From the NCBI GenBank assembly GCA_963383645.1, contig OY726578.1:19632592-19696591 (forward strand): a DNA stretch of 64,000 nt, given 5' to 3'. Under the pieces are notes generated by a model. It worked only from the letters and a program-made list of their open reading frames with translations, had not been told where the DNA came from and made no database searches. This document shows, piece by piece, positions 3,335 to 60,302 of this stretch (position 1 is its first letter; each line of letters starts with the position of its first letter). The translations under genes were made by a program, and so were the position numbers. Origin of the DNA: Muscardinus avellanarius (lineage: Eukaryota; Chordata; Mammalia; Rodentia; Gliridae).

Positions 3335-3392
3335 TTCTGTGGCACCTAATTCAATGCCTGGCACATACCAGGCACCAAATAAACACCACATG
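3335..3392 (+). mobile_element. MIR 3' end leading into the GATG satellite
   Basis: AATGCCTGGCACATACCAGG and ACCAAATAAACACC match the 3' part of MIR elements (...TGCCTGGCACATAGTAGG...CTCAATAAATG...). The satellite starts immediately downstream, so this MIR end probably seeded it. Confidence 0.6.
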
Positions 3393-5050
3393 GATGGATG
3401 GAGAGATGGGTGGATGGGAGGAGGGGTAGATTGATGCAAGAGTTGATGTATGTATGTATGTATGTATGTATGTATGTATGTATGAATAGATGGATGGATG
3501 GATGCAGAGATGGATGGATGGGTGGATGGATGGATGGACGGATGCATAGATGGATGGATGGGTGGATGGATGGATGGGTGGATGGATGGATGGATGGGTG
3601 GATGGATGGATGGGTGGATGGATGGATGGGTGGATGGATGGATGCATAGATGGATGGATGGGTGGATGGATGGATGGGTGGATGGATGCATAGATGGATG
3701 GATGGGTGGATGGATGGATGGGTGGATGGATGCATAGATGGATGGATGGGTAGATGGATGTATGGATGGGAGGATGTATGGATGGGTGGATGGATGGATG
3801 GGTGGATGGATGGATGGGTGGATGGATGGATGGGTGGATGGATGGATGCATAGATGGATGGATGGGTGGATGGATGGATGGATGGATGGGTGGATGGGTG
3901 GATGGATGCATAGATGGATGGATGGGTGGATGGATAGATGGGTGGATGGATGGATGGGTGGATGGATGGATGCATAGATGGATGGATGGGTGGATGGATG
4001 GATGGGTGGATGGATGCATAGATGGATGGATGGGTAGATGGATGGATGGATGGGAGGATGGATGGATGGGTGGATGGATGGATGGATGGTTGGGTGGATG
4101 AATGCATAGATGGATGGATGGGTGGATGGATGGATGGATGGATGGGTGGATGGATGGATGGGTGGATGGATGGATGGGTGGATGGGTGGATGAGTGGATG
4201 GGTGGATGGATGGATGGATGGATGCATAGGTGGATGGATGAATGGATGGATGCATAGATGGATGGATGGGTGGATGGATGGGTGGATGGATGGATGGATG
4301 GATGGATGGATGCATAGGTGGATGGATGGATGGATGCATAGATGGATGGATGGGTGGATGGATGGATGGATGGTTGGGTGGATGAATGCATAGATGGATG
4401 GATGGGTGGATGGATGGATGGATGGATGGGTGGATGGATGGATGGGTGGATGGATGGATGGGTGGATGGGTGGATGAGTGGATGGGTGGATGGATGGATG
4501 CATAGGTGGATGGATGAATGGATGGATGCATAGATGGATGGATGGGTGGATGGATGGGTGGATGGATGGATGGATGGATGGATGGATGGATGGATGCATA
4601 GGTGGATGGATGGATGGATGCATAGATGGATGGATGGGTGGATGGATGGATGGGTGGATGGATGCATAGATGGATGGATGGGTAGATGGATGGATGGATG
4701 GGAGGATGGATGGATGGATGGATGCATAGATGGATGGATGGGTGGATGGATGGATGGATGGATGGATGGATGGATGTGTAGATGGATGGATGGATGGATG
4801 AGTATATGGATGGGTGGTTGGATGGATGGGTGGATGGGAGGAGGGGTAGATGGATGGATGGATGGATGGATGGATGGATGGGTAAATGGATGGATGGATG
4901 GATTATTGTGTGTATGTAACGTATGTATGTATGTATGTATGTGTGGATGGATGGATGGATGGATGATGGTTGGATGGGAGGAGGGGTAGGTGTGGATGAG
5001 TGGATGGTGGATGATGAAGGTTGGATGGATGGATGGACGTGATTGGTGAG
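3389..5050. repeat. 1.66-kb GATG tetranucleotide satellite with higher-order repeats
   Basis: Near-continuous GGAT/GATG units are broken by regular variants (GGGT, GATGCATA, GGTTGGG, GTAT). Blocks recur: the GGTTGGGTGGATGAATG segment at 4088 returns at 4372, a 284-bp period. Flanks carry GTAT runs at 3444-3484 and 4914-4942. Because 4-base units read in every frame as H-P-S-I or M-D-G-W cycles, long stop-free frames here are meaningless. Confidence 0.97.
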
Positions 5051-6983: not shown

Positions 6984-7172
6984 CGCCGGGCGTGGTGGTG
7001 CACGCTTGTAATCCCCGCGCTTGGGAGGCGGAGACAGGAGGATCGCGCAGGTTCGAAGCCAGCTGCGCTGGCGTAAGAGACCCTGTTTCAAAAATATAAA
7101 ATAGGTCTTGGAGTGTAGCCCGGAGGTAGAAGGGCTTCCAGGAACCCCAGTACCACCAAAAAAAAAAAAAAA
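6984..7172 (+). mobile_element. MEN SINE, young 'AGGAACCCCAGTACC' subfamily
   Basis: A complete dimer with poly-A tail is bounded by a perfect 13-bp target duplication, AAATATCCGTACT (6971-6983 and 7173-7185). It interrupts the retroviral LTR immediately downstream of its TATA box, so it is younger than the provirus. Confidence 0.95.
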
Positions 7173-7302
7173 AAATATCCGTACTTATTCTCTGACCGTG
7201 TGACTCTGCCAACCGTGACTCTGCTGCTCGGTCACTGGTCCCTTCCCAAAGATTCCAGTTTAATTAAAGAAGCCTTTAATGACTTGGCTGGTCTTCTCGT
7301 AG

Positions 7303-7380
7303 GGCTCACTAAGTAGCTGAGGCTGTCTGGTCTCAACCTCCTCAATGCTGGGATTACAAGCGTGCGCCACCACGTCCAGC
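7303..7380 (-). mobile_element. truncated MEN SINE (B1 half only)
   Basis: It reads CTCACTAAGTAGCTGAGGC through CGCCACCACGTCCAGC. The ID half and linker are lost at the junction with the LTR. Confidence 0.85.
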
Positions 7381-7737
7381 TTCACCTGAGCCTCTCAGAG
7401 CGGCCTGGCCGGGGACACCCTGCCTTGGCCTGGGCTGCACCCAGGCTCCCCAGGGCCACTGAAGAAGGGTGCCTGCCACGGACCTGATTTCTCCCCGCGT
7501 CCGCACCTGGGTGGGCTGTGGCGGGGGCCATGAGGCTGCCCGGCTGAGGAGTACTGTTATCACCCCTCCCGGCGCTAGTCTCCATGCAGGCTGGGAGAGC
7601 AAGCCAATAAGCTGGAGAAATGGCTGCCCGGCATCTTCTGCCATCCCTGCTACGCCCAGCCTTCCGGGAACATGGTTCCTGCCAGGAGGCTGCCTCTGTT
7701 CATCCGACACGTCCAGAGTGTACACACCGGAGCTGCA

Positions 7738-8024: not shown

Positions 8025-8407
8025 AATGATAGCCCTGAAGAATTTTTAGTAGTAATGGGCGACCTTGACCACTGACCCTGAGTGCTGGGCGCTGACCCTC
8101 AGCTGGATGCTGACTGACCAGGGTCTTCAGTCTCCTGCTTTATGATGCTCTCATTTGACAAGGGACCAAGTTGAGTAAGGTGACCTTCTGGGGGCCAGGG
8201 GCCGGGGTGACAGTGGACTCCTCTAAGCAGTGCTCATTCGCAGGCAAGCATGAAATGCCCCCCAGCTATGAGCTCTCCCAGCCTGAGGTCTGAACAGCGC
8301 GCTCTAGAGTCCCCGAGCCGGCTTCTAGGGCGTCCTGTGAGTTGGGGGTGCGGATGGTTCTGGCCAGGTCTTTTCACTGGGGCCTGAATGTGGGATTTTT
8401 ATCTTAT

Positions 8408-8612
8408 TTATTTCTTAATTATTTTTATTTTTTTGTGGCACTGGGGTTCCTGGAAACCTTTCTACCTCCGGGCTACACTCCCAGACCTATTTTTTATATT
8501 TTTATTTGGAAACAGGGTCTCTTAAGCCAGCAGGCTGGCTTCGAACCCGCGCGATCCTCCTGTCTCCGCCTCCCAAGCGCGGGGATTACAAGCGTGCGCC
8601 CCCACGCCCGGC
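8408..8612 (-). mobile_element. MEN SINE, young subfamily
   Basis: It carries the diagnostic GGGGTTCCTGGAAACC ID variant and TTAAGCCAGCAGGCTGGCTTC in the B1 half. A perfect 17-bp target duplication, TGAATGTGGGATTTTTA, flanks it (8385-8401 and 8613-8629). Confidence 0.96.
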
Positions 8613-8761
8613 TGAATGTGGGATTTTTAATCAGCCGCTGCCCCGAGCATTGATGGCCCCACGGCTCACTGGATCCTGAGTTCAGATTCAGAACTGGACT
8701 CCGCAGACCCAGCTACAAACTTTACGAGGCCCCACGCAAAATGAGTGCACCGGCCCCTCGT

Positions 8762-8905
8762 GCTCATTATTGGTAGGATTGTTAACTGTCGGTAGATAGG
8801 ATTTGGTAGGATCATTCACTATTGTTAGGAGTCCTCACTGTTGGCAGGGTGGGAGTTTTGGTAGGACAATAGTTTTGGTAGGATTGTTCACGGTCAGCAG
8901 GATAG
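8762..8905. repeat. degenerate minisatellite, GGTAGGATTGTTCAC unit
   Basis: Variants of GGTAGGATTGTTCACTGT appear about five times (8770, 8800, 8822, 8866, 8878), interleaved with TTTTGGTAGGA. The copies are too divergent for a recent array. Confidence 0.5.
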
Positions 8906-9599
8906 TGGACCAGTCGTGGGGCCTCTGAGCTCTGGGCGACGGCACAGGCTGCACACACAGAGACCACCTGAGATTCAACATGGCGCTGCTGGGTCCTGGC
9001 CATGTCTTGAGGAGCGGAGCCCTGGGGACCCTAAAGCTGTCAGCCGCATCAGATGACCTGGGTCCCAGACCGGGGCAGGCCACGTGATCTTGTACCACGA
9101 CCTTGGCGTCTCTGGGTCTCAGTCTTGCACGGGGCCAACCCAGGCTGAGAGGCCACCTCTAAGCCACCTCCCACCCAGCCTCCCCACCCAGCCTCCCCAC
9201 CCAGCCCCCATCTGTGGCCTCAAAACCTCTGGAGGATCAAATTGCCAGAGCCACCTCCCCCACCCAGCCTGGCTGGAAATGGTTTCCACACAAAGCCCGC
9301 ATTTCCCGCGAGCCTATCGATTCCCCGATTCCCCGAGTCCACCGCCACGTTGCAATTTCAGACGGCAGGATGAGGCCCGGCTGGCAAATAAACACGCAAG
9401 TCCCGGGGCGCCCCCGCCGCCGGCTCCCTTCACCGCGTCCCTGCGAGGATGCAGCGAGGACGCAGCCATCAGGGGCCCCGTGGGAGGAGGGTCGGCCGGA
9501 GCCGGGAGCCTGGAGGATAATGGGCTTAAACAGAGGTCAGACCCCAAGCAGGACCGGCGGATCTAATCCCATCACGGAGGCCCGGGGGCTCTTCTCTTC
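8906..9599. other. unique GC-rich sequence
   Basis: It includes a short CCCAGCCTCCCCAC triplication (9172-9207) and a moderately CpG-rich part at 9380-9490. Open frames on both strands have no recognisable protein pattern. Confidence 0.45.
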
Positions 9600-13900: not shown

Positions 13901-14092
13901 TCCTTCTCTCCTCTCCTGCCTTCCATCCATCTTTACAGCCTCCCATGTATTCATTTCTTACATCCATCCATCCTTCCTTCCTTCCATGCACTGTCCGTCC
14001 ACTGATCCATCGACCTCTAAGTCCATCCTCCACCCATCAATACATACACACATTCTTCCATCCATGCGCCTGCCACCTGTGTTTACATCTTT

Positions 14093-14771
14093 TTTATTTA
14101 TTTTTTAATTGGCGCTTTGTAATCATACATCACATTGGAATATAAGACTTGAGAGGATATACAAGCACACATCATCCAGTTAGTCCTCATCCACTCCCAT
14201 TCCCTCCCCCTCCCTTGATCCCATGCTTGTTTGGTGATTAACTTTGACACATTTGTTTATGTACCTCCTGCGTTTTAAAGAGGCTCCATCCTCCCCTATT
14301 CCATACCCTCTGATTGGTCATCTTAGTTGCTTCACTATAGGGCCCTTTCTATAGCTCGACCTCTTCCTGTTGCCCCTTTCCTCCTAGTTTTTACTGATTA
14401 GGGGAAGCATCTGGTTTTTATCTTCTGCGATATTTCTCTGTACATGCCGCGTTGCAAGTACCGATCCCACTTTTGACGGCCCCAGTAGTGGCCTGGCTAC
14501 CCGGTGGACTGATCCAGACCTCGCTGGCTCAAGCAGCGGCCTTGCCTCATGGGAGGCCCCGATTCTGGTTTCGCTGGCCCCGACACCGGCCTAACCCCTC
14601 GGCTGGCTCCGATCCCAGCCTTGGAGGCCCCAGCACCAGTCTTGCCTCACGGCAGGCTCCAATTCAGGCCTTGCTCGCCCCGGCACTGGCCTAACCCCTC
14701 GGCAGGCTCCGATCCCGGCCTCGGAGGCCCCAGCACCAGCCTTGCCTCATGGCAGGCTCTGATGACGGCCT
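14093..14771 (-). mobile_element. composite GC-repeat retroelement, copy 1
   Basis: A perfect 15-bp target duplication, TGTGTTTACATCTTT (14,078-14,092 and 14,772-14,786), bounds it. Read on the minus strand it has three parts. About 310 bp of GC-rich tandem units come first (CGAGGCC..GGATCGGAGCCTGCC), then about 330 bp of unique middle (14,110-14,445) and an A-rich tail (AATTAAAAAATAAATAAAA, reversed at 14,091-14,110). The same three parts in the same order occur at 48,120-49,290. The minus-strand start GGCCGTCATCAGAGCC aligns with the same phase of the repeat unit as the start of copy 2. It has no coding capacity, so it was probably moved by L1 proteins. Confidence 0.88.
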
Positions 14772-15019
14772 TGTGTTTACATCTTTACGTCCGTCCTTCT
14801 GCCCATATGTCCTTCTTCCCTTCTCTTTCCTTTCATTCTTATATCCAGCCAGCCAGCCTTCCATTCACCCATTCTTTCTTCTTTCTTCTGTTCCTCCATC
14901 TTCCCATTCATCTGCCTTAGTCAACCCAACCTTCCTTTTATTCTATCTTCTCATTCTTTCTTTCTTATATCCATCCATCCGCCCATCCTTCCATCCATTC
15001 ATCCCTTCTTCCTCCTTTT

Positions 15020-18669: not shown

Positions 18670-18779
18670 GGTGTGACCCGGATGCTGCAGCTAGGGGTGG
18701 GGTCTTCTCCATCTTCAGAGCGCAGGTGTGACCCGGATGCTGCAGCTAGGGGTGGGGTCTTCTCCATCTTCAGAGCGCA
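18670..18779. repeat. exact 55-bp tandem duplication
   Basis: The unit beginning GGTGTGACCCGGATGCTGC is present twice without a single difference (18,670-18,724 and 18,725-18,779). Identity in noncoding DNA implies a very recent duplication or an assembly artefact. Confidence 0.95.
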
Positions 18780-31342: not shown

Positions 31343-33475
31343 TCACCTACTCACCTGTCCTCCTACCTGTTATTTCTTCATATGCTCACTCACCTACACA
31401 TCCATCTATCAATCATCCATCATCCATCCAGCATCCATCATCATCCATCCACCATCATCCATCATCCATCCATCATCATCCATCATCCATCCATCATCAT
31501 CCATCATCATCCATCATCCATCCATCATCCATCATCCATCCATCATCATCCATCATCCATCCATCATCATCCATCATCATCCATCATCCATCCATCATCC
31601 ATCATCATCCATCATCCATCCATCATCCATCATCCATCCATCATCCATCATCCATCCATCATCATCCATCATCCATCATCCATCCATCCATTATCCATCA
31701 TCCATCATCTATCCATCATCCATCATCCATCCATCCATCATCCATCTATCCATCATCCATCAATCATCCATCCATCCATCTATCCATCATCCATCATTGA
31801 TCAATCATCCATCATTATCCATCATCATCCATCATCTATCCATTATCCATTATCCATCATCTGTCATCCATCCATCATTTAGTCATCATCATTCATCATC
31901 CATCCATCATCCATCACCCAGCCATTATCCATCATCCATCATCCATCTATCATCCCTCCATCATCCATCATTCATCCATCATCATTCATCATCATCCATC
32001 CATCATCCATCATCCAACCACCTTCCATCATCCATCCATCATCTGTCCATCATCCATCCATCATCCATTAATCATCCATCCATCATCATCATCATCCATC
32101 ATCATCCATCATCCATCATCCATCCATCTATCATCCATCCATCATCCATCATCCATCATCCATCATCCATCCATCATCCATCATCCATCCATCATCCATC
32201 CATCATCCATCATCCATCATCCATCCATCCATCATCCATCATCCATCTATCATCCATCATTCATCCATCATTATCCATCATCCATCATCCATCTATCATC
32301 CATCATTCATCCATCATCATCCATCATCCATCTATCATCCATCATCATCCATCCATCATCCATTATCCATCCATCCATTATCCATCATCGATCAATCATC
32401 CATCCATCATCCATCCATCATCCATCATCCATCCATCCATCCATCCATCATCCATCATCCATCTATCATCCATCCGTCATCCATCATCATCCATCATCCA
32501 TCCATCATCATCCATCATCCATCATCATCCATCATCCATCATCCATCATCCATTCATCATCCATGCATCATCATCCATCATCCATCCATCCATTATCCAT
32601 CATCAATCATCCATCCATCATCCATCCATCATCATCCATCATCCATCATCCATCATCCATTCATCATCCATGCATCATCATCCATCATCCATCCATCATC
32701 CATCCATAATCCATCATCCATCAATCATCCATCCATCATCCATCCATCCATCATCCATCAATCATCCATCATCCATCCATCCATCATCCATCATTGATCA
32801 ATCATCCATCCAGCATCCATCATCATCCATCCACCATCATCCATCATCATCCATCATCCATCCATCATCACCCATCATCCATCATCCATCCATCATCCAT
32901 CATCATCCATCATCATCCATCATCCATCCATCATCCATCCATCATCCGTCATCCATCCACCATTTGTCTATCATCTGTCCATCCATCCATCATCCACAAT
33001 TCATCCATCATCTCATCATTCATCCATCCATCATCCATTATTCATTTAACCATCCATCCTCCATACATCCATCATCCACCCATCATTCATCCGTTCGTCC
33101 ATCCATTCATCCATCCATCTATCACCTATCCATCATCTGTCCGTCCATCCATCCATCATCTATCCATCTGTCCATCTGTCCATCCATCCATTCATCCATC
33201 CATTGTCCATCATCCATCCATTCACCCATCCATCCATCCCTCATCCATCCACCACTCATCCATCTGTCCACCCATCCCTCATCCACCACCCACCCACCTA
33301 CATATCCAACAGCCCATTCATTCACCTCCCCTCTTGTCTATCCATCTGTTCATGCACATACCCACCCATCCACACCTCCACACTCACGCATCCATCCATC
33401 TGTCTGTCTTTCATTCCATCCATCTTTCCATCCATCCATCCACCCATCTGCCCACTCATCTGCCCTCCCTAGTCT
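30945..33475. repeat. 2.5-kb CATC / CATCATC satellite
   Basis: Three zones are visible: mixed CATC and CTTC (30,945-31,300), an AT run (31,301-31,340), then a long CATC-ATC zone (31,420-33,120) where 4- and 3-base units mix, grading back to CATCTGTC/CACC variants. The long stop-free plus-strand frame (His/Pro/Ser/Ile) is only the repeat being read. Confidence 0.97.
31301..31340. repeat. (AT)n run
   Basis: An uninterrupted 40-bp AT run inside the CATC satellite. Confidence 0.97.
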
Positions 33476-47491: not shown

Positions 47492-47711
47492 CTTTTTTTT
47501 TTTTTTTTTTTCAGAATGAAAGGTTGAACCCGGGATCTTTTACCTCCAAGCTACACCCCCAACCCAATTTTTAAAAATTCTTTATTTTGAAAGAGGGCTC
47601 ACTAAATTGCGGAGGGCCCCACTAAGTAGCTGAGGCTGGCTGTGAACCTGGGATCCTCCCGTCTCGGCCTCCCAGGTCCTGGAATTAAAAGCGTGCGCCA
47701 CCACGCCCGGC
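47492..47711 (-). mobile_element. MEN SINE
   Basis: Poly-T, then AGAATGAAAGGTTGAACCC (diverged ID half), linker and B1 half. CTCCAGGTGTCTTTT on the left and TTCTAGGTGACTTTT on the right form an imperfect target duplication. Confidence 0.9.
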
Positions 47712-48105
47712 TTCTAGGTGACTTTTAATCCCTAATACAGTGTAAACAGGACGGGAATAGTTGTTATACTGTACTGTTTAGGGAATAACGACGAGGAAAG
47801 AATTCTCTCCATGTTCAATACAGACCCAGCTGTGTACACGCAGACAGCGCGAGCTGCGGCCGGGGTGCCCATGTGGAGATTTGTTTGCCTGGAATCAAGT
47901 TTTGCCTTTTTGGAACTTGAAAAAAAAATAAATTCTGATTTTTATTCCAATTTTTTATACTTTTATTGGTGCATTGAAATTTCACATCACAATGTAGTTC
48001 AGAGTGATACTTTCTGAAATTAAAAAAAAAATGATTTCAATCTGAGTTTAGCTAAATCCGCAGATTTGGGGCCTTCAGATACAGCCCCGAATTTTAGCAC
48101 AATTT
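47712..48105. other. AT-rich unique sequence
   Basis: TTTTTATTCCAATTTTTTATAC and neighbouring AT-rich words could be an old LINE or a regulatory island. Nothing is recognised. Confidence 0.35.
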
Positions 48106-48119
48106 AAATGCCCAGCGTG

Positions 48120-49290
48120 GGGGCCAGCGAGGCCGGCATCGGAGCCTGCCGTGAGGCAAGGCCGGTACTGGGGCCTCTGAGGCCAGGATCGGAGCCTGCC
48201 GAGGGGTTAGGCCGGAGCTGGGGCCAGTGAGGCCGGCATCGGAGCCTGCTGTGAGGCATGGCCGGTGCTGGGACCTCCGAGGCCAGGATCGGAGCCTGCC
48301 GAGGGGTTAGGCCGGAGCTGGCCAGTGAGGCCGGCATCGGAGCCTGCCATGAGGCAAGGCCAGTGCTGAGGCCTCCGAGGCCGGGATCGGAGCCTACCTT
48401 GAGGCAAGGCCGGTACTGGGGCCTCCGAGGCCAGGATAACAGCCTGCCGAAGGGTTAGACCGTTGCTGGGGCTAGCGTGGCCAGCATCGGAGCCTGTCGT
48501 GAGGCGAAGCCAGCATCGGAGCCTGCCATGAGGCATGGCCAGTGCTGGGGCCTCCTAGGCCGGGAGCGGAACCTGCCGAGGGGTTAGGCTGGTGCTGGGG
48601 CCAAGGAGGCCGGCATTGGAGCCTGCCGTGAGGCTAGGCCGGTGCTGGGGCCTCCGAGGCTGGGATTGGAATCCTGCCAAGGGGTTAGGCCGGTGTAGGG
48701 GCCAATGGCCAGCATCGGAGCCTGCCGTGAGACAAGGCCACTCCTGCGGCTTCCAAGGCCGGAACCGAAGCCAGCTGAGGGGTTAGGCTGGTGTAGGGGC
48801 CAGCGAGACCAGAACCAGGGCCTCCCATGAGGCAAGGCCGCTGCTTGAGCCAGCGAGGTCTGGATCAGTCCACTGAGTAGCCAGGCCACTACTGGGGCCG
48901 TCAAGAGTGGGATCGGTACTTGCAACGCAGCATGCACAGAGAAATATCGCAGAAAATATAAATCAGAATGCTTCTCTTAATCAGCAATAACTAGGAGGAA
49001 AGGGGCAACAGGAAGAGGTTGAGCTATAGAAAGGGCCCTATAGTGAAGCAACTAATGTGACCAATCAGAGGGTATGTAATAGTGGAGGATGGATGCAGGA
49101 GGTACATAAACAAATGTATCAAAGTTAATCAAAGAAGCTTGGGATGGAGGGAGGGGGAGGGAATGGGATGGGGCTTGGAGGAGGGCTAATTGGATGATGT
49201 GTGCTGTATATCCTCTCAAGTCTTGTACTCCAGTGTGATTGATATATGACTACAATGCACCAATTTAAAAAATAAATAAATTAATTTAAA
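48120..49290 (+). mobile_element. composite GC-repeat retroelement, copy 2 (longest)
   Basis: AAATGCCCAGCGTG flanks it on both sides (48,106-48,119 and 49,291-49,304), a 14-bp perfect target duplication. About 790 bp of tandem units form the 5' part (48,120-48,910). Each unit is about 50 bp; units ending GAGGCAAGGCCGGTGCT and GAGGGGTTAGGCCGGAGCT alternate, giving a 100-bp period. A middle region follows (48,911-49,200: CTATAGAAAGGGCCCTATAG, ACCAATCAGAGGGTATG), then TACAATGCACCAATTTAAAA and an A-rich tail. The middle and the repeat junction (TCGGTACTTGCAACGC) match copy 1 at 14.1-14.8 kb. It has no coding capacity; stop-free frames in the repeat part come from its composition. Confidence 0.9.
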
Positions 49291-49324
49291 AAATGCCCAG
49301 CGTGATGCTTAACAAACACACAAG

Positions 49325-49909
49325 CTTTTTTTTTTTTTTTTTTTATGGTACTGGGGATGGAACCCAGGGGCTTTTCTACCTCAGGGCTACACTCCCAGAC
49401 CTATTTTATAGTTATTTGGTTAACAGGGTCTCACTAAGTTGCTGAGAGCCTCACTAAGTAGCTGAGGCTGGCTTCGAACCTGTGTGATCTGAAAGAATGG
49501 AAATAGGGGGTTTAGGAGGGAGGTAAAAACATCAACCGGGTTATCAGAGACCGCTGCTTTATTCAGAACCGACCCGGCACCCTCCGGGGAGTCAGCCGGC
49601 CGTGGGGAAAGGGACGGAAGGGCCACGCGTCTGGAGAGTTGCACACAGTCCTGATTGGCCGGCTGAGTCACGTGGCGGATCAGAGGTACCGATGTTTTAT
49701 AGGCACGCTGATTCTCTCGCGACGTCTGTAGTCTCGCGATGTTTGGAGTCTCGAGGCACCTGGATTCCTGCGATATCTCCGCCTCCAGGGTTCTACCTCC
49801 TGTCCCGGCTGCGGGATCACGCAGGGGAGGGAGGGACCCGGCTTATCACACTCCTCCTGTCTCAGCATCCCAAGCGCTGGGCTTACAAGCGTGCGCCCAC
49901 ACCCCCGGC
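49325..49909 (-). mobile_element. MEN SINE split by a retroviral LTR
   Basis: The first part (49,325-49,489) stops at CGAACCTGTGTGATC. The remainder (TCCTCCTGTCTCAGC through CACACCCCCGGC, 49,852-49,909) resumes after the LTR. The two parts together make one complete SINE. Confidence 0.85.
49490..49850 (-). mobile_element. solo LTR of a class I endogenous retrovirus
   Basis: It is bounded by TG...CA (TGAAAGAATGG at the left, GGCTTATCACA at the right). On the minus strand it has TCGCGAGA words (reverse at 49,715-49,722 and 49,732-49,739), a TATA box (CTATAAAA, reverse at 49,695-49,702) and AATAAAGC (reverse at 49,557-49,563). It aligns with the LTR at 6,788-7,302. No internal viral sequence is present, so it is a recombined solo LTR lying inside an older SINE. 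Confidence 0.78.

Positions 49910-55220: not shown

Positions 55221-55221
<1 letters not shown>
55043..55221 (+). mobile_element. MEN SINE whose tail became an AAAG satellite
   Basis: GGCATGGGGACGCACACCTG through CAATCCTTGGTATCACC is an old dimer. The AAAG array starts at the first base of its tail. Confidence 0.85.
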
Positions 55222-55288
<67 letters not shown>

Positions 55289-55985
55289 GAAAGGAAGGAA
55301 GGAAGGAAGGAAGGGAAAGAAAGAGAAAAAGAGAGACAGAAAGAGAAAGGAAGAAAAAGAAAGAGAGAGAAAGAAAAAGAAAGAAAGAGAAAGAAAGAGA
55401 CAAAGAGAAACAAAGAAAGAAAGAGAAAGAAAAAGAAAGAAAAAGAAAGAGAGAAAGAAAGAAAGAGAGAAAGAAACAGGGAAAGAAAGAAAGGAAGGAA
55501 GGGAAAGAAAGAGAAAGAGAAAAAGAAAGAAAAAGAGACAGAAAGAGAAAGGAAGAAAAAGAAAGAGAAAGAAAGAAAGAAAGAGAGAAAAAGAGAAACA
55601 AAGAAAGAAAGAAAAAGAAAGAAAGAAGGAAAGAAAGAAAGAAACAGGGAAAGAAAGGAAGGAAGGAAGAAAATAAGGGAAAGAAAGAGAAAACGAAAGA
55701 AAAAGACAAAGAGAAAGGAATAAAAAGAAAGAGAGAAAGAAAGAGAGAGACAAAGAGAAACAAAGAAAGAAAGAGAGAAAGAAAAAGAAAGAAGGAAGGA
55801 AAGAAAGAAAGAAACAGGGAAAGAAAGGAAGGAAGGAAGAAAATAAGGGAAAGAAAGAGAAAAAGAAAGAAAAAGACAAAGAGAAAGGAAGAAAAAGAAA
55901 GAGAGAAAGAAAGAGAGAGACAAAGAGAAACAAAGAAAGAAAGAGAGAAAGAAAAAGAAAGAAGGAAGGAAGGAAAAGAAATAAG
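55222..55985. repeat. 760-bp AAAG polypurine satellite with ~170-bp higher-order unit
   Basis: The plus strand is purine except for scattered C and T. The landmark GAAACAGGGA recurs at 55,473, 55,641 and 55,811, and ACAAAGAGAAAC recurs likewise, so AAAG variants are organised in units of about 168-170 bp. The last two units are nearly identical. The Lys/Glu and Phe/Leu/Ser frames on the two strands are artefacts. Confidence 0.95.
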
Positions 55986-56652
55986 GAAATTGAACATGGG
56001 GACACACAATTAAGACACATTATGTAGAAATAAAGTAGAATGAGTGGATTCCACAGAAGTGTGATAAACCCTCCAGAAGGAGAGGGAAGAGGAGACTGCG
56101 GGGAAAACAGGTCAAAGAGACAGAGGCAGAACGGAAGAAAGAGGTGTTTCTGGCTGAACGACATTGTTATCCCAGGATAAACAAATAAACAAACAACTAA
56201 CCCACCGACGACCGGCACCACTCCACCTGGACGCCTCGTGCTGAAAACGAGAACACCAAAGACAGAGAGAACGTCACGCGTGCTACCAGACAGAAAGGGG
56301 CCTCAAAGGAACAGGAATCAGGCCGGTGGGCAGCAGACTGCTTTTCAGAACCAGGAGGTGCCAGGAAGCCGTAAACAGTATATTTAAGGTGCTCGGGGAG
56401 AATGACTGTCAGGTTACAACTTGGTAATTACCCTGCCCCCCCACACGATTAAATGATATAAAAAGTGGAGACAAAGCAGAGAAAGCGTGTTCTCCCGAGG
56501 TACTGAGAGACTTAGCAAGGAATGTGAGAGGGAACTGGAAGGAGCAAAGGCATCAGCAAATACACTTAAGAATCCAAGTGACCCCGGAGGCTGAGCCGTA
56601 ATGCCTGCCAATTAGGGCGATTTAAAAAATGAAGTTAAAATACTAGTTTTGA
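55986..56652. other. unique sequence, moderately AT-rich
   Basis: It could contain an old LINE piece, but I recognise none. No gene is seen. Confidence 0.4.
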
Positions 56653-59592: not shown

Positions 59593-59650
<58 letters not shown>

Positions 59651-59661
59651 GAGAGGAGAGG

Positions 59662-59703
<42 letters not shown>

Positions 59704-60302
59704 ACAGAGAGGAGGAGAGAGAGGGGAGAGAGAGAGGAGAGAGAGAAGAGAGGAGAGAGAGAAGAGAGGAGAGAGAGAAAGGAAAGAGAGGGGAGAGAGA
59801 AGAGAGGAGAGAGAGAGAGGAAAGAGAGAGGGGAGAGAGAGAAGAGAGGAGAGAGAGAGGGGAGAGAGAAGAGAAAGCAAGAAGAGAGAGAGGAGAGAGA
59901 GAAGAGAGAGAAGGGAGAGAGAGAAGAGAGGAGAGAGAGAAGAGGAGAGAGAGAGAGAGAGGAGAGAGAGAGGAAAGAGAGAGGGGAGAGAGAGAAGAGA
60001 GGAGAGAGAGGGGAGAGAGAAGAGAGAGCAAGAAGAGAGAGAGGGGAGAGAGAGGAGAGAGGGGAGAGAGAGAAGAGAGAGCAAGAAGAGAGAGAGGGGA
60101 GAGAGAGGAGAGAGGGGAGAGAGAGAAGAGAGGAGAGAGAGAAGAGAGGAGAGAGAAGAGAGAGAGAGAGAGGAGAGAGAGAGAGTGTGGCGTGCAAGGG
60201 GCGGAGAGGACCTTATATCATCCCAGGCCACTCCCCCAGGGGCCCCGCCTCAGCAACCAAGCCCTGCCTCCCACAGGGGACATTCTAAACCCCAACTATA
60301 GC
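59412..60302 (-). mobile_element. MST-type MaLR LTR carrying a large GA expansion
   Basis: GAAGATGTATTTGCTCACAG and GGAGGCTGGGGGAGAGAG lie left of the purine tract. GGGGCCCCGCCTCAGCAACC and GGGACATTCTAAACCCCAAC lie right of it. Read in reverse this is an MST-like LTR. The purine tract sits at the same place as the CT tract of the LTR at 42.7 kb. Confidence 0.68.
59593..60185. repeat. 590-bp (GA)n polypurine tract
   Basis: Pure GA/GGA on the plus strand, with a 53-bp unit marked by GCAAGAAG repeated at 60,028 and 60,081 and a further copy near 59,877. The Arg/Glu and Leu/Ser frames are artefacts. Confidence 0.96.

Follow-up and report, generated by a model that had tools for sequence, protein, structure and literature searches.

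We examined what kind of element occupies positions 48120 to 49290 of the window, the whole 64,000-nucleotide stretch of rodent DNA analysed here. The initial annotation had taken it for a long copy of an apparently undescribed SVA-like composite retroelement, or else for an L1 whose GC-rich 5' monomers had been joined to its 3' UTR by deletion of both open reading frames. We assign a probability of about 0.85 to the reading that a member of a non-autonomous family of composite retrotransposons inserted here in 5'-truncated form, its RNA most likely being mobilised in trans by L1.

Structure of the element in the window

The element is bounded at both edges by exact copies of a 14-bp target site duplication, AAATGCCCAGCGTG (5' copy, 48106-48119; 3' copy, 49291-49304), just as had been reported. 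The GC-rich tandem units were likewise recovered by Tandem Repeats Finder, with periods of 50 and 100 bp starting at 48120; they form a central VNTR (48120-48908, plus strand, GC 68%) in which ~50-bp units of two types alternate, giving the 100-bp period. Downstream of the array come single-copy DNA and an A-rich 3' tail (49266-49290, plus strand), but the "unique middle" and the A-rich end first listed as separate parts form one piece. It begins with homology to the L1 ORF2 C-terminus (~30 codons, stop included; 48909-48994, plus strand, by alignment with the L1 ends L010 and L030, in which the ORF2 C-terminus directly precedes the 3' UTR; the codon limits are a by-eye reading of this alignment) and continues as an L1-derived 3' UTR (48995-49265, plus strand) in which a G-rich tract lies near 49141-49173. 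Rfam held nothing matching 47700-49700 of the window, a plasmid collection gave no match, and a pattern search of IMG/VR with the tail and the VNTR unit gave 0 matches.

A second copy, placed by the initial annotation at 14.1-14.8 kb, was borne out with the same parts and the same junction. It lies on the minus strand (14093-14771), aligns to the window copy as an older, 5'-truncated VNTR remnant with an L1-derived tail (85.4% over 692 columns, spanning the boundary between VNTR and single-copy DNA), and is flanked by its own 15-bp duplication, AAAGATGTAAACACA, at 14772-14786 (5') and 14078-14092 (3'). Its tail departs from a 31-tail consensus by 9.9% (non-CpG), compared with 0.6-2.7% in 30 window-like copies, which were chosen by similarity to the window copy and span less than the full family spread.

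Other repeats within the window are two very long, strongly strand-asymmetric ATGG/CATC tetranucleotide arrays, 1.6 kb at 3390-5037 and 1.9 kb at 31399-33296, a perfect tandem duplication of 55 bp (18670-18779), and purine arrays (AAGA, GA) of 0.6-0.8 kb (55221-55989 and 59595-60185).

A multi-copy family with a four-part architecture

The window's own assembly (2.497 Gb, 104 contigs) was searched with three DNA queries, and the best 40 places were scored for each. All 40 scored places for the window-element query (the window included) matched nearly the whole query at 90-100%; the best 40 for a 5' half taken from a four-part copy matched at 88-100%, and the best 40 for the tail by itself at 92-100%. 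Pooling of the three best-40 lists by hand, where 5 rows of the 5'-half list and 2 rows of the tail list overlapped with the window-element list, gave at least about 113 separate places, spread over 22 contigs. The preliminary counts of 8846 (window element), 4945 (5' half) and 1456 (tail) are loose figures and no census; scoring took in the top matches for composite-derived queries, a sampling that favours similar structures. Each of the 12 fetched 5'-half matches continued into the VNTR (2 of these were also among the fetched window-element matches).

Had the two window copies been taken alone, they might have been read as a minisatellite that happens to adjoin an L1 3' fragment, or as segmental duplication of one such place, and nothing beyond these two copies speaks for that explanation. 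It is scarcely credible against the number of places and contigs recovered, and against fetched copies in which the linked parts are constant, the flanks are different, and 20 of 31 have duplications of their own. The window element belongs to a real multi-copy family of VNTR-composite retrotransposons, and the original claim of a family, not chance adjacency, was upheld.

In the 21 four-part copies read, ~121-bp GC-rich 5' monomers are followed by a middle of ~0.5 kb, the VNTR and the L1-derived tail. A tether precedes the middle in most of them; in two copies (L023/L035 and L016/L037) the monomers are joined straight to an A-rich stretch without a tether. These copies are 2349-4099 bp long (n = 21), their 5' ends fall at differing positions within the monomers, and the VNTR, measured in 17 of them, is 1013-2217 bp in length and varies in steps of ~50/100 bp. 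The copy at L031, for example, has in the element sense monomers of period 121 (7032-7440, GC 0.72), then the tether and A-rich stretch, a middle reaching to ~8065, a VNTR with best periods of 100 and 50 (8066-9078, GC 0.67), and a tail (9079-9465) followed by an A-rich end, with a 16-bp target duplication, TAAATTGTATTGTTTG, at the element edges. Among loci L001-L030 and the longer L031-L038, many copies carry ~1 kb of additional 5' sequence relative to the window copy, which is truncated inside its VNTR array and is missing the 5' half visible in the longer copies; the description "long copy" was thus mistaken, and the 17 measured VNTRs all exceed its ~0.8 kb. The longest stop-free stretch in 4 copies was 152-174 codons. 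A protein origin of the middle was considered for two protein-like stop-free stretches and rejected, as neither had a match in Pfam, NCBIfam or PDB and both were taken as chance.

Marks of insertion

Target duplications were scored in 32 copies (30 window-like loci, the second window copy, and the copy on contig C17), the ends of which were resolved in 31; L010 was left out of the duplication count as a neighbouring L1 end interfered, and for L025, where the same occurred, the ends came from a separate reading of the locus. A duplication was counted if it was at least 10 bp long and lay no more than 4 nt from the element edge. Qualifying duplications were present in 20 of the 31 copies (12/21 four-part, 8/10 truncated), versus 7 edge repeats of at least 10 bp in 930 mismatched pairs, where 3' flanks were set against the 5' edges of other copies; the check on target duplications that had been suggested across copies was therefore positive. 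By the counting rule 9 of 21 four-part and 2 of 10 truncated copies were without a duplication, and repeats outside the rule were seen in L004 (12 nt, 15 nt off the edge), L015 (9 nt) and L034 (9 nt). The duplications measured 10-20 bp, with one of 40 or more, and 15 of the 20 start with AA or TAA (a by-eye reading, uncorrected for composition), the start expected of L1 endonuclease sites. Truncation of the 5' end inside the VNTR was found in 10 of the 31 resolved copies, and one four-part copy was inserted in ORF2 of an L1, flanked by a 10-bp duplication.

Origin of the tail and of the 5' half

Human ORF2 C-terminal residues match L010 and L030 (tblastn), and the DNA further 3' in these L1 ends aligns across the composite tail; the alignment begins ~30 codons upstream of the ORF2 stop and includes a 6-nt gap in the composite. 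Younger tails are 57-66% identical to the long L1 ends L010, L017 and L030, and the oldest copy's tail is 59-67% identical to them, so the tail separated from these L1s long ago; at 57-67%, none of the L1s compared qualifies as a present L1 partner. In a tree, a split with support of 1.000 divides seven composites (two older ones included) from the seven L1-type 3' ends, and the 3' UTR of the C17 L1 that hosts a composite aligns weakly with the composite tail. Judged by these alignments, the composite 3' end is L1-derived and consists of the ORF2 C-terminus plus the 3' UTR.

An L1 origin of the whole element was weighed as well: internal deletion or splicing might have removed both ORFs of an L1 and fused its 5' UTR, with both tandem arrays, to its ORF2 tail and 3' UTR, the product being amplified later. 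This reading concerns origin and could hold together with an L1-driven mechanism, and we consider it unlikely. ORF2 codons in the tail are what would be left if a deletion or a splice had its 3' junction within ORF2, the layout of monomers and tether resembles that of mouse L1 5' UTRs, and the middle starts with GGAGAGGGGCCAAGATGGC in the old copy L066/L067 (GGAGAGGAGGTAAGAAAGCC in young copies), the former being similar to the way in which the human L1 5' UTR begins. The old middle, aligned with ORF1 of the L1-type element on C17, also outscored each of 60 shuffles (z 2.7). Across 42 comparisons of parts with this element and a second, older L1 on C17, however, z ranged from -2.3 to 2.7, the two top scores being the old middle with ORF1 (2.7) and the tail with the L1 3' end (2.6), and for so many comparisons no part other than the tail is remarkable; the score of 2.7 is one of many tries, yet it counts against independence. 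When the parts were compared by blastn with the C17 stretch, the composite itself was the sole match among the listed alignments of more than 150 columns. Monomers, middle and VNTR had no convincing match in two L1-type 5' ends (one of them perhaps incomplete) and the open reading frames, and another L1 lineage could be the donor of the 5' half, as the comparison covered these two L1-type 5' ends.

The protein searches also weigh against a deleted L1. None of five human L1 ORF1/ORF2 pieces matched in the 21 four-part copies, compared with 14 matches in the C17 stretch used as control; the ORF1 C-terminal piece, without a match in those 21 copies, matches two stretches of the C17 region, and the L1 protein matches near composites fall in flanking DNA. 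In C17 a four-part composite lies within ORF2 of an older L1, and next to it the opposite strand carries an L1-type element that has a 5' UTR of its own. L1 reading frames between the GC-rich array and the 3' piece, a finding that would have counted against a composite, were not encountered in the 21 four-part copies. The suggestion of an L1 with both reading frames deleted is weakened: the 3' end is L1-derived, but the idea that the GC-rich repeats are L1's own 5' monomers has so far found no support. The 50-bp array is the central VNTR, and different monomers of ~121 bp lie further upstream.

Old copies, age and a HAL1-like family

An old copy on C23 (L066, L067) retains tether, middle and VNTR; its tether and middle are 77% identical to those of young copies (435/563 aligned bases), and the alignment ends before the young monomers. 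The GC-rich 5' DNA of this old composite (L066 601-901, with L067) does not align with the young monomers. In another old copy, L038 (about 330-2340, element sense), the tail is 77-79% alike and a SINE-like stretch was seen by eye within the VNTR. If neutral change proceeds at 2-3 x 10^-9 per site per year, rough ages are a few million to some ten million years for the selected young copies and tens of millions of years for the oldest.

A separate family, here called HAL1-like, was seen on the minus strand of contig C17, running in L052 from about 4446 to ~1690. It has a ~0.8-kb 5' UTR containing AAGATGGCG, an L1 ORF1 across two reading frames (Transposase_22, dsRBD-like), ~1 kb of AT-rich DNA without a same-strand ORF2 match, and then an L1 3' end; the best 40 scored genome places for its 5' UTR matched at 96-100%. 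The composite copies L031 and L025 seem nested in HAL1-like copies, to judge from the duplication of L031 and the flank of L025, which both look like sequence of that family. L066, L068 and L069 were tried as 3' ends of elements with an L1-type 5' UTR and rejected, there being no ORF2 match and no L1 3' UTR in them, which a HAL1-like structure would explain.

Proposed mechanism and meaning

The anatomy, the linkage of parts in fetched copies, the duplications, the unit steps of the VNTR and the presence of both old and young copies were seen directly, and the following steps are proposed. Transcription would start at the ~121-bp GC-rich monomers, a presumed Pol II promoter; L1 ORF2p, acting in trans, would make use of the L1-like 3' end and poly-A of the RNA in target-primed reverse transcription; and insertion driven by L1 would leave duplications, A-rich tails and 5' truncation. 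The VNTR would change length at the DNA level.

On balance we lean slightly towards a rodent lineage having independently evolved a long-lived VNTR composite of the SVA plan, in which the 5' promoter module was swapped while the VNTR and the L1 3' end were kept. If this is true, the VNTR would have arisen convergently and under selection in L1-dependent parasites and would be no ape accident, and the rodent case would provide a second lineage for asking how the VNTR benefits an L1 parasite and if exchange of the 5' module is the rule. The composite also spreads CpG-bearing, length-variable GC-rich arrays through the genome, a possible source of regulatory variation.

Comparison with known systems

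HAL1 (half-L1) elements are non-autonomous and keep ORF1 and the L1 3' end; the composite is also non-autonomous with an L1 3' end but, unlike HAL1, has a VNTR and is without an L1 protein match. SpIREs (spliced integrated L1 elements) combine the 5' and 3' portions of an L1 from which the interior has gone, and the composite shares this plan of 5' plus 3' parts, although its 5' half does not convincingly match the two L1-type 5' ends compared.

The nearest parallel in plan is the SVA group, and by analogy the composite probably works as SVA, LAVA, PVA and FVA do, with its RNA moved by L1 in trans. Common to both are non-autonomy, a central, length-variable VNTR of GC-rich 30-50-bp units (here a 50/100-bp period over 1013-2217 bp), and a separate 3' module, variant within the group, with poly-A and target duplications (here an L1-derived tail, and duplications in 20/31); the 3' part of LAVA also contains an L1 fragment, according to PMC4432496. 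That the composite is a true member of the SVA group, by common descent or horizontal transfer, is nevertheless very improbable, as the 21 four-part copies have neither a CT-hexamer array on the plus strand ((CCCTCT)2 or (TCTCCC)2 on the element sense strand, 0/21) nor a match to a B1-type SINE from the window, used to test for the Alu-like (7SL-type SINE) region (0/21, compared with 58 alignments in the window as control). "SVA-like composite" therefore stands for the plan and the L1-type marks, but not for these SVA-specific parts. The composite further differs from the group in its ~121-bp 5' monomers, tether and middle, in its host order, indicated as rodent, and within it sciuromorph, by the B1/ID-type SINEs, in a tail that is an L1 3' end extending to the A-rich end, and in old copies that are 77-79% like young ones in the parts compared.

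VNTR composites are stated to be specific to hominoid primates in PMC4432496 and PMC7353768. The open-licence literature on "VNTR composite", by title and start of abstract, had human, primate or general mammalian subjects and included no rodent or squirrel VNTR-composite family; the present family is absent from the open-licence literature searched and may already be catalogued in a repeat library. Quiescence of transposable elements is noted as reported for the ground squirrel in PMC5857283.

In SVA_F1 and pt_SVA_D6, as described in PMC6139936, a GC-rich 5' exon has replaced the 5' portion of SVA. The composite differs in that no gene exon was identified in it, and its 5' exchange is suggested by alignment; like SVA_F1 and pt_SVA_D6, it appears to have swapped the 5' module and kept the rest, the old copy sharing tether, middle and VNTR with the young ones.
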